This document shows, piece by piece, positions 4,578 to 50,480 of a stretch of 64,000 nucleotides of DNA (positions are counted from its first letter, which is position 1; each line of letters opens with the position of its first letter). The translations under genes and the position numbers were made by a program. The notes beneath the pieces were generated by a model that searched no databases, had not been told where the DNA came from, and saw only the letters and a list, made by a program, of their open reading frames with translations. Source of the stretch: Rhodospira trueperi (GTDB lineage: Bacteria > Pseudomonadota > Alphaproteobacteria > Rhodospirillales > Rhodospirillaceae); contig NZ_FNAP01000004.1 in NCBI RefSeq assembly GCF_900101965.1, positions 186,001 through 250,000 of the forward strand, written 5' to 3'.

Positions 4578-4692
4578 CGTCATTGCGAGGCGCGAAGTCC
4601 AAACAAGATATATGGGGCAATCCAGGGTGGGTATCTGCGTTCCATGCCCTGGATTGTTTCTCCCTCGTCTTGCGACGCGGGTTGCAATGACG
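4578..4692. repeat. dispersed palindromic element, copy 1 (CGTCATTGCGAG family)
   Basis: About 115 bases bounded by CGTCATTGCGAG and TTGCAATGACG, with an inner inverted repeat CAATCCAGGG/CCCTGGATTG. It fills nearly the whole cpoB-tilS gap. The same order of blocks appears on the opposite strand at about 42599-42697, and the terminal palindrome alone sits inside menC at 49736. The first ATG of the tilS frame (4687) is made by the terminal repeat itself. Confidence 0.8.
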
Positions 4693-42392: not shown

Positions 42393-42742
42393 CCCTCCCC
42401 TGGATCTATCATATTCACTCTTCTTCTCGCCGAAGCGGGGGCTCTTCGCTCGCGCGACAAATTGACTCGTCATTGCGAACCCCTCAGGAATCCCCTCATT
42501 TCGGAAAAGGGCCGCAAAATCAATGGGTTTCACGACATCGGCCTGCGCGATAACCTGTTGATTTAATTGCATGTTTAAGAAATGAGGGGATTCCTGAGTG
42601 CGAACCCTCGTCGCAAGACGAGGGTGAAGCAATCCAGGGCACAAAACGCAAATATCCACCCTAAATTGCTTTGTCGCTTCGCTCCTCGCAATGACGAGCA
42701 TAAGTGAAGATATGTGAATATGATAGCCTGGATAGGGGAGGG
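42393..42742. repeat. nested (Russian-doll) inverted-repeat element
   Basis: Four pairs of arms sit inside one another: CTATCATATTCAC (42406-42418) with 42714-42726, extended outward by CCCTCCCC/GGGGAGGG; CTCGTCATTGCG (42466-42477) with 42687-42698; a perfect 20-bp pair (42483-42502 with 42579-42598); and AAATCAA/TTGATTT (42517-42523 with 42558-42564). Between arms lies a reverse copy of the cpoB-tilS element (about 42599-42697). No transposase. It looks like repeat insertions into one another, or a composite MITE-like element. Confidence 0.75.
42599..42697 (-). repeat. dispersed palindromic element, copy 2 (CGTCATTGCGAG family)
   Basis: Read on the minus strand it runs CTCGTCATTGCGAGG, GCGAAG, CAAAGCAATTTAGGG, GATATTTGCG, GCCCTGGATTG and CCTCGTCTTGCGACG, closely parallel to copy 1 at 4578-4692. 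Confidence 0.75.
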
Positions 42743-45473: not shown

Positions 45474-46853
45474 ATGTCAACGTCCCTCCAGACCGTGCTT
45501 GATGAGACCCGCCCCCCAGCCGAACGCGCCGATCCGCTGCACCTGCTGGAACGCGCCATCCTGGAGTCGCTCGACACCATTGAGGCGACCCGCCCGGGCG
45601 GTCTCGTCAGCCTGAGTGTCGCGCTCCCCGATGCCGCGCCAGATGGCGACGCTGCGGTGAACCCGGTTCGGGGCGGGGATTGCCGCTGGCTGTCTCCCGA
45701 CGAGGATCAGACCCTCTATGGGGCCGGGGAGGCCGTACGCCTCACCCTGCCGACGCCGGACGGGTTCGAGGCCCATCGGACGGCCTGGGTGGTCCTGGGG
45801 GAAGAGGGCCTACCGCCGCCCCTTGCTTTCTGGACTGTGCCGCCGGCGCTGGACCCGGCGCCGCCGGAACTCTGGGTGCCGCGTGTGCTGCTGCGCCGGA
45901 CGGGGGGGCGCATGACCCTTACGGTCAGTCTGCGGCGCGGCGATACGCCGGTCGCGGAAGCGGTCCGATGCTGGCTGGCGGAGGCGCGGACGCTGCTGCA
46001 CGGCAGGCCCCGTGACGTCCTGCCCGCCATCGCCGCGCGCGCCCCCAAGACCGACCTCGCCGACTGGACGGATCGGGTGCGGCGCACCACCGAGGCCATT
46101 GCCGCCGGCCGCCTCTCGAAGGCGGTGCTGGCACGGCGGCTGGATATCCGTCTGACCGGGACCGCAGACGCCCAAGTGCTTGCCGACCGGTTGGCGGCGC
46201 TGCATCCCGCGTGCTGCACCTTTGCCCTTGCGCACGGGCAGGGCCATGTGGTGGCGGCCAGTCCGGAGCGGCTGGCGGTCAAGCGGGGGGCCAAGGTCCA
46301 CAGCACCGCGCTGGCCGGCACAGCGCAACGGCATGCCGACCCCGAGGCCGACGCGCGGGCCGCCGGGGATCTTCTGGCCTCGCCGAAGGAACGCCGCGAA
46401 CACGCCATCGTCGCCGACGCCATCGCCGAGGCCCTGGCCGAGGTCTGCGAGTCGGTTGAGCGGCCGGAAACGCCCGACATCATGCGTTTGCGTCAGGTGC
46501 AGCACCTGCACACGCCGGTGACCGGGCATCTGCGCGCCGGTGTGGGGTTCCTGGATGTGGTCTCGCGCCTGCATCCCACGCCGGCGGTTCTGGGATGGCC
46601 CCGACCGGCCGCCCTGGACTGGCTGCGGGCCATGAACGAGGGCCGCGACGGGCTGTACACCGGCGTCGCCGGCTGGATCGACCGCGACGGCGACGGCGAG
46701 GCGGCCATGGTGCTGCGCTCGGCCTATGTCGAGGATCGCGCCGCCGTGCTGTGGGCCGGCGCCGGCATCATGGCCGAGTCGGATCCCGCGCGGGAATGGA
46801 CCGAGACGGACCTGAAGCTCTCGACCCTGCTCAACCTGTTCGGCGATCCATGA
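45474..46853 (+). CDS. menF: isochorismate synthase MenF
   Basis: Converts chorismate to isochorismate, the entry step to menaquinone. The 459-residue product has a divergent N-terminal half and a chorismate-binding C-terminal half: RLSKAVLARRLDI, where K216 is the general base that marks isochorismate synthases rather than anthranilate synthases; STALAGTAQRHADPEAD; LLASPKERREHAIV; LHTPVTGHL; HPTPAVLGWPR; and GLYTGVAGWIDRDGDGEA. Siderophore-type EntC is an alternative by sequence, but menD overlaps its stop by four bases. First gene of menF-D-B-C. Confidence 0.94.
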   Translation: MSTSLQTVLDETRPPAERADPLHLLERAILESLDTIEATRPGGLVSLSVALPDAAPDGDAAVNPVRGGDCRWLSPDEDQTLYGAGEAVRLTLPTPDGFEAHRTAWVVLGEEGLPPPLAFWTVPPALDPAPPELWVPRVLLRRTGGRMTLTVSLRRGDTPVAEAVRCWLAEARTLLHGRPRDVLPAIAARAPKTDLADWTDRVRRTTEAIAAGRLSKAVLARRLDIRLTGTADAQVLADRLAALHPACCTFALAHGQGHVVAASPERLAVKRGAKVHSTALAGTAQRHADPEADARAAGDLLASPKERREHAIVADAIAEALAEVCESVERPETPDIMRLRQVQHLHTPVTGHLRAGVGFLDVVSRLHPTPAVLGWPRPAALDWLRAMNEGRDGLYTGVAGWIDRDGDGEAAMVLRSAYVEDRAAVLWAGAGIMAESDPAREWTETDLKLSTLLNLFGDP

Positions 46854-48550
46854 GCACGCCGGGGGACGTGACCCAGCGATGGGCCGGGGCCTTGATGGAC
46901 GGCCTTGCCGGCGCCGGATTGCGGCGGGTGGTGCTCTCGCCCGGGTCGCGCTCCACGCCGCTCACGCTGGCCGCGCTACGCCATCCGGACCTGACCCCTC
47001 GCGTCGTCATCGACGAACGCTCGGCCGCGTTCCACGCTCTCGGGCTCGCCAAGGCGGAGGGTCGCCCGGCGGCCGTGATCGCCACGTCGGGGTCGGCCGT
47101 GGCGAACTGGTTTCCGGCGGTGGTCGAGGCCGACATGGGCCGCGTGCCCCTGATCCTGCTGTCCGCCGACCGGCCGCCGGAGTTGCAGGACTGCGGCGCC
47201 AATCAGACCATGGACCAGATCGGGCTGTTTGGACCTCATGTCCGCGCGTTCCATCCATTGCCGCCGGCCGAGGCGGACATCGGCTGGCTGGCACCGCTGG
47301 CCGCCCGGGTGATGGCCGCCACCCTCCAGCCCATGCCGGGGCCGGTTCACGTCAACGTGCCCCTGCGCGAGCCGCTGGTGCCGACGGCCGGAACAGGCTC
47401 GGCGGTGTCCGGCCCTGTTCCGCCCCAACGTCTGTCGGCACGGGCGAGACCGTCGAGCGAGACCCTTGAAACCCTGGAGCGCGTGATCGGCGGCGGGCGC
47501 GGCGCCATCGTCTGCGGCACCGAGGACCTGGGCGCCGATGGTCGTGCGGCAGTGCTGCTGCTGGCGGAGCGGCTGCGGGTGCCGGTGTTCGCCGATGGGC
47601 TCTCCGGGCTGCGGTTCGACGCTCGGGCGGGCGCGGCCGTGCTGGCCCATCCGGATGAGGTGGCGCGGGGAGCGCCGCCGGCCGACTGGGTGTTGCGTCT
47701 GGGCGGTGCACCGGTCTCCAAGGCGCTGTCAACGTGGCTGCAAACCGCGCGCGGACGACCCCAGGTGGTGGTCTGTGCGTCCCCCCGGGTGGCCGACCCC
47801 GAAGGCACCGCGACCCATGTTCTTCACGCTGATCCGGCGGAGGTCTGTCGGGATCTCAAAGGATCGCCGGCGCCGGAGTGCTGGTTGCGGGACGTCGTGG
47901 CGATGGACGGTGTCGCCGCCAACGCCGCCGAGGCGATCTGCGCGGAGGACGCACCGTTCGAGGGCAACGTCCTGCGCCGTCTGGTGAGGGGGCTGCCGTC
48001 GGGCACGCCGCTGGTGCTCGGCAATTCGCTGCCGGTGCGGGCGTGCGATTGGCTCGCCGGGCGGGTGCCGGGCGGCCCGCGTCCGTTCGGCAACCGGGGT
48101 GTGTCCGGCATCGACGGCACCCTGTCCACCGCGTTCGGCATCGTGTCCGCGCTCGGCCCCGGCGTTGTCGTGGCGGGAGACCTGACGTTCCTGCACGATC
48201 TGGGCGGGCTTGCCCTGGGACGCGACCTGCCCCTGGCGATCCTGCTGCTCGACAACGGCGGCGGTGGCATCTTCGACCACCTGCCCCAAGCCGGCCTGCC
48301 CGAGTTCGAGCAGGGCTGGCTGACTCCGCCCGCGCTGGACGCGATCACCGCCGCGCGGGCCTTTGGCCTGTCCGCCGAAACGGTCGCCACCACGGATGAG
48401 GCCGTCGCGGCCGTGCGCGCGGCCCTTGACCGCCCGGCCGCCTCGGTCATCCGCCTGCCCATCGACCGGGCCGAGAGCCTGCGCCGGTTCCGGTCCTTTT
48501 TCGCCACCCGTCCCGCCCCCATTCGCCCACCAGGGAGCCCCGCTTCATGA
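46850..48550 (+). CDS. menD: SEPHCHC synthase MenD
   Basis: Thiamine-diphosphate enzyme that joins isochorismate and 2-oxoglutarate. The 566-residue product shows [16 protein letters not shown], the cofactor-activating glutamate in [66 protein letters not shown] and the ThDP/Mg motif [12 protein letters not shown]...[11 protein letters not shown]. The more usual residue before the last Gly run is NN; here it is DN. ATGA overlaps join it to both menF and menB. Confidence 0.96.
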
Positions 48551-49383
48551 CCACCGAGACGTTCGACTGGCAGCCCGCCCCCGGCACCGACTACACCGAC
48601 ATCCTGTTCGATACCTTCGAGGGTATCGCCCGCATCACCATCAACCGCCCGCACGTCCGCAACGCCTTCCGGCCGGAAACGCTGGAGGAGGTCATGGACG
48701 CCCTGCACCGGGCGCGGCTGGATCCGGACGTCGGCGCGGTGATCCTGTGCGGCGCCGGTTCCGAGGCGTTCTGCGCCGGCGGTGACCAGAAGGTGCGCGG
48801 CGAGCATGGCGGCTATAAGAACGAGGCCGGCGTCAACCACCTGAACGCCCTCGACCTGCAACGCATGATCCGCACCCTCCCCATGCCGGTGGTGGCCATG
48901 GTGGCCGGCTGGGCCATCGGTGGCGGCAACGTGCTGCATTTGGTGTGCGACCTGACCATCGCCGCCGACAACGCCCGCTTCGGCCAGACCGGCCCGCGCG
49001 TCGGCAGCTTCGACGCCGGCTTCGGTGCAGGGTTGATGGCCCGCACGGTGGGCCTGAAGAAGGCCAAGGAAATCTGGTTCCTGTGCCGCCAGTACGACGC
49101 CCAACAGGCGTTGGAGATGGGCCTGGTCAACACGGTGGTGGCGCTGGCCGATCTGGAGCGCGAGACGGTCGGCTGGTGCCGCGAGATGCTGGCGCTGTCG
49201 CCGACGGCGCTGCGCGTGCTCAAGGCCGGCTTCAACGCCGACACCGACGGCCTGTCTGGTATTCAGGAACTGGCCGGCAATGCCACCGCCTTGTTCTACA
49301 TGACCGAGGAGGGGCAGGAGGGTCGCAACGCCTTCAACGAGAAGCGCTCGCCGGACTTCGGCCGCTATCCGCGCCGGCCCTGA
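48547..49383 (+). CDS. menB: 1,4-dihydroxy-2-naphthoyl-CoA synthase MenB
   Basis: Crotonase-fold enzyme that closes the naphthoquinone ring from o-succinylbenzoyl-CoA. The 278-residue product has [18 protein letters not shown], the oxyanion-loop sequence [57 protein letters not shown] and the terminal [14 protein letters not shown] typical of MenB. It overlaps menD by four bases; its TGA shares a base with the menC ATG. Confidence 0.97.
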
Positions 49384-50480
49384 TGCGGATTGCGGCCGCG
49401 ACGGTCCATCCCTACGCCCTGCCGCTGGTGCGGCCGTGGGTGGCATCCCGGGCGACGCTGACCGAGCGACGCGGTCGGCTGCTGGCGGTGACGAGCGAGG
49501 ACGGGCTGGTGGGTTGGGGTGACTGCGCGCCCCTGCCCAGTTCCGGCGAGGCGGGCCACGCGCGGGTGTTCCAGGCACTGAACGCGGCGGTGCGGGGGTT
49601 GCCGGGGCGCGATACGGCGGATGTGTCCCCGTCCGACGTGCCCGAAGTGCGCTGGGCCATAGAGACCGCCCTGTTCGACCTGGAGGCCCGCCGCGCCGGC
49701 CTGCCGCTGCGGCGGTTTCTGCGGTCTAGTTTCCCCGTCATTGCGAGCCCCCGTCAGGGGACGGGGGCTCGCAATGACGAGCCACGAACCATCGCCCCCG
49801 TCCGCGTGCCCATCAACGCCGCGCTCGGGCCGCTGGACGCGGGGTGCGCCGACCGCGCCGAGGCGGCGGCGGAAAGGGGCTTCGCGGTCGGCAAGATCAA
49901 GGTCGGGGTCGGGGCCATCGACGACGAACGGCGCGCCCTCGCCGATGTGATCGAGCGGGCGCGGGGCCGGCTGCGGGTCCGCCTGGATGCCAATCGGGCG
50001 TGGCCCGAAGCGGAGGCCCGGCGGTTCCTGGAGTCCCTCGTCGGTCTGCCGATCGACGGTGTCGAGGAACCGCTGGCCGATCCCACGCCGGCGGCGTTGG
50101 CGCACCTGCAAAAGGACCTGCCGTTCCCCCTGGCCGCTGACGAGTCCCTGCCGGTGCTCGGTGTCGACGCCCTGCTGGAGGCCCGGGCCGTGCGGCGGCT
50201 GGTGGTCAAGCCGGCGCGCCTGGGCGGCATCCGCGCGACGCTGGCGTTGGCCGCACAGGCGCAAACGGCCGGGGTTGAGCTGGTCCTCACGTCGGTGGTG
50301 GATTCAACGGTCGGGGTGACGGCCGCCGCCCATCTGGCCGCCGCGCTGCCAACGGAAAACACCCATGGCCTGGGCACGCTCGACTGGCTGACGCGCGACG
50401 TGGCGCCGCCGCCGGTGATCGTCGACGGCGCCCTATGTCTTCCCGCCGGCCCCGGGTTGGGTCTCGTCCCCAAGGGATAG
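49383..50480 (+). CDS. menC: o-succinylbenzoate synthase MenC, with a palindromic insert in the coding frame
   Basis: Enolase-superfamily enzyme that dehydrates SHCHC to o-succinylbenzoate. The 365-residue product has the metal and acid/base set: K171 and K173 in GKIKVG, D202 in RLDANRAW, E229 in VEEPLADP, D253 in AADES, and K276 in VVKPARLGG. Dipeptide epimerases look similar, but the last-gene position in menF-D-B-C supports MenC. Residues about 118-132 (PVIASPRQGTGARND) are encoded by a 19-bp-stem palindrome of the dispersed repeat family. It falls in the linker between the capping domain and the barrel and leaves the frame and active site intact. Confidence 0.92.
   Translation: MRIAAATVHPYALPLVRPWVASRATLTERRGRLLAVTSEDGLVGWGDCAPLPSSGEAGHARVFQALNAAVRGLPGRDTADVSPSDVPEVRWAIETALFDLEARRAGLPLRRFLRSSFPVIASPRQGTGARNDEPRTIAPVRVPINAALGPLDAGCADRAEAAAERGFAVGKIKVGVGAIDDERRALADVIERARGRLRVRLDANRAWPEAEARRFLESLVGLPIDGVEEPLADPTPAALAHLQKDLPFPLAADESLPVLGVDALLEARAVRRLVVKPARLGGIRATLALAAQAQTAGVELVLTSVVDSTVGVTAAAHLAAALPTENTHGLGTLDWLTRDVAPPPVIVDGALCLPAGPGLGLVPKG
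49736..49779. repeat. dispersed palindromic element, copy 3, inside menC
   Basis: Left arm CGTCATTGCGAGCCCCCGT and its exact 19-base complement flank a 6-base loop. The CGTCATTGCGAG terminus is shared with the elements at 4578 and 42466-42698. It is 44 bases, bounded within codons 118-133, and contains no stop in the menC frame. Confidence 0.85.

Follow-up and report, generated by a model that had tools for sequence, protein, structure and literature searches.

REPs and REPINs are usually treated as extragenic sequences. In the genome of Rhodospira trueperi, a palindrome carrying the CGTC tag of a dispersed repeat family lies in frame within menC (o-succinylbenzoate synthase). The gene lies in the window, the whole stretch of 64,000 nucleotides that was analysed (assembly GCF_900101965.1, contig NZ_FNAP01000004.1, positions 186,001 to 250,000), and window coordinates are used below unless a locus or contig is named. 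The palindrome is probably an intragenic, internally deleted copy of the genus's CGTC-tagged REP heterodimer, a REPIN-like element usually 104 bp long, the full dimer having presumably entered menC before two species split and then been trimmed in frame.

The palindrome and its host gene

The palindrome occupies positions 49736-49779 (no strand assigned), as established by palindrome search, folding and a two-piece fit to the repeat family, and reads CGTCATTGCGAGCCCCCGTC-AGGG-GACGGGGGCTCGCAATGACG. Its left arm (20 bp, 49736-49755) begins with the tag CGTCATTGCGAG, and its right arm (20 bp, 49760-49779) ends with the inverted tag. The initial annotation had described a perfect stem of 19 bp with a 6-base loop; the palindrome is indeed perfect, but its size is slightly better given as a 20-bp stem with a 4-base loop. 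As DNA it has a predicted folding energy of -29.3 kcal/mol (shuffle mean -9.37), and as RNA it is predicted to form a very stable hairpin (z -5.81); in neither case did any of 200 shuffles equal it. No RNA family was matched when menC was searched against Rfam at gathering thresholds. As had been read from the sequence at the outset, the element lies wholly within the menC frame, with no stop and no frameshift, and encodes about 15 residues, namely V119 to D132 whole together with parts of codons 118 and 133.

The host gene (49383-50480, plus strand) was identified as menC by NCBIfam and gene context. Its start codon overlaps the stop codon of menB (48547-49383, plus strand; NCBIfam 469 bits, cut-off 380), which is directly upstream, and an ORF at 46595-48550 (plus strand) holds menD (NCBIfam 404.6 bits, cut-off 244.2). 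The menD match begins at residue 96 of this ORF, and the true menD start is therefore probably downstream of the ORF start. MenC itself scores 129.7 bits, just below the cut-off of 130.55; thus, the name of the gene rests partly on the context of menD and menB.

Six residues of MenC (K171, K173, D202, E228, D253 and K276) are invariant in all 15 aligned sequences. Among the catalytic residues first named as intact, K171, K173, D202 and D253 stand, whereas E229 probably does not: E228 aligns with the glutamate of VEQP in 1jpm, which we take to be a metal ligand, and on this alignment E228 is more likely than E229 to be the metal-binding glutamate. K276 is an invariant lysine beyond those named.

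An AlphaFold2 model built from the 15-row alignment (mean pLDDT 91.2, pTM 0.90) has enolase-superfamily enzymes, such as 2pgw and 1jpm, as its top Foldseek matches in the PDB. The sole stretch of the model with pLDDT below 50 is residues 123-136, which sit between helix 109-116 and strand 141-144. The model bears out the proposed position of the insert in the linker joining capping domain and barrel, and it fits a tolerated, disordered loop at that junction; in the protein the repeat probably appears as an additional floppy loop between the two MenC domains. Outside the insert, menC of the window and of its sister species (see below) agree at 84.7% of bases and at 69.6% of third positions, and low agreement at third positions is as expected if purifying selection has acted with the insert present. 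Harmlessness of the insert is plausible because third positions diverge more than the other two and the loop is disordered in the model.

The repeat family and a probable trimmed dimer

The terminus of the palindrome had been thought common to dispersed elements elsewhere, and this proved correct: the genome of 4.21 Mb contains 67 exact copies of CGTCATTGCGAG, 34 of them forward and 33 reverse, and none of a reversed-pattern control. Within the window the tag is found five times at no more than one mismatch (4 exact, 1 mismatched) against 0.55 expected, a number reached by 0 of 100 shuffles, and two of the five are the ends of the menC palindrome itself. The 67 exact tags correspond to 48 distinct places, 41 of which are inverted REP dimers of 103-117 bp whose far end is the inverted tag with at most 3 mismatches. 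Exactly 104 bp is the length of 27 of these 41 full dimers, and 40 of them were seen by inspection to pair two different REP types, the exception being L016. Of the remaining seven places, one is the menC copy and three are dimers into which, close to one end, a small inverted-end element has been inserted; a further dimer is broken by another element, one copy is truncated, and at L019 the tag looks like a chance match inside coding sequence. Besides the menC copy, the window contains a second dimer of 115 bp (4578-4692, minus strand by the convention of placing REP-a first), which is decayed at one end, and a third (42468-42696, no strand assigned), which is one of those interrupted by the small element. 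Matches to a model of the dimer in the genus numbered 97 in this genome (G000), 132 in the sister species (G002), 92 in G005, 7 in G004, 1 in G003 and 0 in G001, all rough counts for which 150 of about 3000 candidates per genome were scored and a near-palindromic copy can match both strands. The six genomes are patchy in both traits, the repeat ranging from 0 to 132 model matches and MenC being matched (1e-30) in 2 of 6.

Several sequences associated with the dimers were also noted. The small element inserted inside REP dimers (window 42468-42696; L112, L114, L116) has inverted ends of CAGGAATCCCCTCATTT, with 112 bp between the outer motif ends. This end motif has 13 matches in the genome, and seven loci were examined, five of which have both ends; three of the seven fall in REP dimers, so REPs may be targets of the element. 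Near position 1501 of L012, a REP dimer is seemingly broken by an element of another kind, whose ends read GGCTTATCCCCCTG and CAGGGGGATAAGCC. By eye, several dimers (L011, L016, L028, L029, L075, L080, L081, L083, L087, L094, L097 and others) have common flanks beyond the tags, aactYtact-like upstream and AGTCA...GCGAG downstream, as though a larger repeat were built around the dimer.

The full dimers consist of two inverted REPs and a spacer and are predicted to be able to fold as one hairpin. Thirty of the 41, those of 103-105 bp, were aligned for folding, with a mean column identity of 86%. Columns 1-4 (CGTC), A5, T6 and A40 are invariant and T41 is conserved in at least 90% of copies, as are C43 and A44 of the CCA tail, of which C42 is invariant; in the menC copy the inner end carrying CCA is deleted. 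RNAalifold predicts a three-way junction made up of an outer stem from the two tags, a stacked hairpin and a second branch at columns 35-94 (60 nt). The inner stem has 9 pairs and, in most copies, a 4-base loop, and below it, past an internal loop, comes another stem, ATTGC/GCAAT. In this predicted fold 97.8% of cells pair, compared with 29-45% in slid registers, the structure having been derived from the same 30-copy alignment on which pairing was tested. Both sides have changed in 5 of the 34 pairs, and the covariation score was reached by 0 of 500 shuffles; all the compensatory changes (5 pairs) fall in the inner stem of 9 bp, and neither of the two remaining helices has any.

Removal of columns 35-94 (60 bases) from an ordinary dimer leaves a 44-base palindrome of the menC type. 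In a two-piece fit against the 41 full dimers, the menC 44-mer was matched as prefix plus suffix of the dimer at G000:C10:11467-11570, with a 60-bp (20-codon) deletion and 2 mismatches in 44, the minimum among 2000 shuffles and 1010 other menC windows being 18 mismatches. The 60 bp deleted are one whole branch of the predicted three-way junction, and the menC copy is left without the spacer and most of one REP. In 35 of the 41 full dimers the menC reading frame is free of stops, so an ancestral full insert could have been translated. Among 317 genomes of the order, only one contained two exact tags in inverted orientation separated by 2-32 nucleotides, and the same was true among 385 genomes sampled from the class (the samples overlap by five genomes); in both cases this was the menC copy. 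The 44-mer as an independent mobile unit was rejected, there being no second copy in the 317 or the 385 genomes; the results fit the menC copy being a 44-bp derivative of a dimer of about 104 bp rather than a typical unit.

The insert in related species and its history

MenC was matched at 1e-30 in 16 of the 317 genomes of the order, the window's own included. The closest other genome is that of an uncultured Rhodospira (the MAG G002, apparently NZ_CAKZOT010000077.1), the sister species, whose MenC is 86% identical. Its menC has an insert at the same site, in which the right arm is the same at 23 of 24 nt of the compared codons and the left half at 12 of 21 nt; the right flank of the insert is also near-identical in the two species. 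The initial annotation had raised recent mobility, which the sister insert at this position does not support; recent insertion in the window lineage alone was accordingly rejected. As both species share the site, the insertion is most likely older than the split between them.

The sister insert is itself explicable as a trimmed dimer. Its 41-mer fits a dimer with a 63-bp (21-codon) deletion and 4 mismatches in 41, the best of 2000 shuffles having 17 mismatches and the best of 1013 windows 14. Its inner left bases match the other REP type at 12 of 13 positions, which 6 of 20,000 shuffles do. Neither copy can be derived from the other by deletion alone, and both deletions, of 60 bp and 63 bp, are multiples of three.

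Fourteen MenC homologues were aligned, comprising 11 of the 13 loci of one match set (L073 and L074, at 30% identity, were left out) and 3 loci from the search of the order, partial matches being left out. The segment of residues about 118-133, which was expected to be missing from relatives, is absent in 12 of the 14; it is present in the sister species, and in the remaining homologue, L063 (75-76% identity), the linker exceeds that of most others by about 9 residues. As a candidate decayed copy of the repeat, the segment of L063, picked by eye, was equalled by 1 of 3000 shuffles in its fit to the window copy and by 126 of 3000 in its fit to the sister copy. When the L063 locus was scanned, the corresponding place ranked second for the window copy and fell outside the top four for the sister copy and for a composite dimer. 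The linker of the window MenC is about 21 residues longer than those of the shortest homologues, or about 19 bp beyond the 44-bp element.

The simplest history, judged from the sequences compared, would be a full dimer in the common ancestor followed by two different in-frame deletions. We infer the ancestral full dimer, since none was seen at the menC site in any genome examined. Before the species split, a full dimer would have entered the linker-coding part of menC in a mostly stop-free frame, and MenC would have accommodated some 35 additional residues, since it is a surface loop that links the capping domain to the barrel. Shortening in frame would then have removed 60 bp in the window lineage, with loss of one branch of the fold and retention of a perfect palindrome, and 63 bp in the sister lineage.

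Two other histories start from a repeat as well. A single trimming before the split may have left a short asymmetric form, as in the sister species, after which a template switch across the inverted tags in the window lineage replaced the left arm by a copy of the right, which gave a perfect palindrome. This would account for a right arm nearly unchanged (23 of 24 nt) beside a left half that differs (12 of 21 nt) and for a left arm that is the exact complement of the right, and homogenisation of inverted-repeat arms by template switching has described precedent (PMC8604942, PMC7202029). It is nonetheless unlikely, since one deletion, at a cost of 2 mismatches, is enough to derive the 44-mer, with its REP-a 5' arm and 4-base loop, from an ordinary dimer, and no templated step is needed. 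That two repeats entered the same menC site independently in the two species is quite improbable: the left halves differ and both genomes are rich in the repeat (97 and 132 model matches), but the site is the same, the right arm and right flank are near-identical, and the dimer that best fits the menC copy also shares the best fit for the sister copy.

The segment might instead be native to MenC, and palindromic by chance or by selection for a ribosome-pausing mRNA hairpin at the domain boundary. The site at the boundary of capping domain and barrel, the very stable RNA hairpin (0 of 200 shuffles as good) and the longer linker of L063 are all in keeping with such an origin, which is nevertheless scarcely credible for a segment that matches the dispersed family almost letter for letter in tag and inner stem and is absent from 12 of 14 homologues. 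The hairpin, moreover, is not conserved, since the sister species does not keep the left arm. Under the preferred history of an ancestral full dimer trimmed differently in each lineage, a more general process can be proposed tentatively, although we would not rely on it: REP dimers in genes may be worn down by structure-guided, frame-keeping deletions, in which a branch is lost at its base, or by arm homogenisation, such that about 35 residues become a flexible loop of 14, and sister species record different trims.

Known systems and other intragenic copies

The occurrence of CGTC-tagged REPs in coding sequence is already published. Di Nocera et al. 2013 (PMC3733652) describe such repeats with CCA tails, head-head dimers, a bias to the alphaproteobacteria, copies in genes and no associated transposase. 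The family described here shares with them a terminal CGTC, a stem that opens with an A-T pair followed by T-A, and CCA after the stem, as well as head-head dimers with the tags outside (41 of 48 places here), some units in genes and, for the Y1_Tnp class surveyed, the lack of an associated transposase gene. The two differ in that the published repeats have a plain stem of 8-9 bp closed by 4-5 loop bases, whereas the stem here is broken into two parts, ATTGC/GCAAT and the inner stem of 9 bp. The menC copy, moreover, is a collapsed 44-bp dimer, for which the CGTC-4 dimers of Wolbachia, reported with a deleted spacer, offer a precedent of collapse (PMC3733652).

The initial annotation had likened the insert to the palindromic elements of Rickettsia, and the comparison is apt: RPE-6 and RPE-4 of R. 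conorii have been placed in CGTC-tagged REP families (PMC3733652). Like them, the menC copy is palindromic and sits in frame in a gene that probably remains functional, and it is absent from most homologues; the genus and the sequences are different, and the likeness is one of kind. The same source suggests that REPs in genes may be neutral when they fall in flexible linkers (PMC3733652). Translated inverted repeats or small mobile sequences are also known as coding palindromes in nematomorph mitochondria (PMC6649704) and as enterobacterial RU elements in genes (PMC2759123), although the nematomorph arms encode conserved protein, whereas those of menC encode a loop absent from most homologues, and the RU elements belong to other families. 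The broader proposal of a mobile repeat family that lands in genes is borne out as regards membership of a dispersed family and an in-frame copy in a linker.

In the literature searched, no paper on a CGTC-tagged repeat in menC was found. As CGTC-tagged REPs in genes have been published (PMC3733652), what is added is one well-documented case, not a new class; less usual is an orthologous pair of differently trimmed copies in sister species. If the proposed history is true, two in-frame trims of one orthologous copy show a selfish repeat becoming ordinary protein sequence, and the menC pair is a clean one for testing the neutrality of such inserts. If structure-guided trimming is true, it becomes possible to time the process and to follow what happens to selfish DNA within proteins.

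REPINs are doublets copied by RAYTs (PMC8049555), and the dimers here resemble them in having two inverted REPs and a spacer, in being able to fold as a hairpin and in sharing a genome with a RAYT gene. One Y1_Tnp gene was found in the genome (L031 1408-1938, on G000:C10; product of 176 aa), which NCBIfam identifies as a RAYT (191.5 bits, cut-off 80). No CGTCATTGCGAG tag occurs at 2 or fewer mismatches in its 3.3-kb locus, and in this survey of the Y1_Tnp class no CGTC repeats flank the transposase gene. REPINs are moved by RAYTs (PMC8049555), whereas the link of the RAYT gene here to the CGTC family is only putative; the single RAYT-like tyrosine transposase is thus only a candidate mobiliser of the dimer. 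A transposase gene located away from the CGTC tags is also reported in other genomes that bear them (PMC3733652).

Other copies within genes were sought among the 48 places. Open frames alone are too loose a guide, there being 134 over the 48 elements. By codon usage, only for the menC copy do the two flanks both look strongly coding on a single strand (14 on each flank), in rough scores for which training ORFs were chosen by a crude rule and included one wrong-strand ORF over menC. Open frames that reach 40 codons or more on each side numbered 21 (window excluded); Pfam was applied to 20 of these, the frame left out being one reading of the chance match L019, and 2 of the 20 had hits. One is a LysR gene, in which the repeat is upstream of the first domain. 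The other is a copper-type P-ATPase (L079, G000:C16:18340-20340) with a full REP dimer in an in-frame insertion. These incomplete tests place 2 of the 48 repeats within genes, in menC and in the copper-type P-ATPase. The P-ATPase insertion, which looks composite, measures 339 bp by comparison with G002 and 333-348 bp by comparison with three further congeners; all four lack it.
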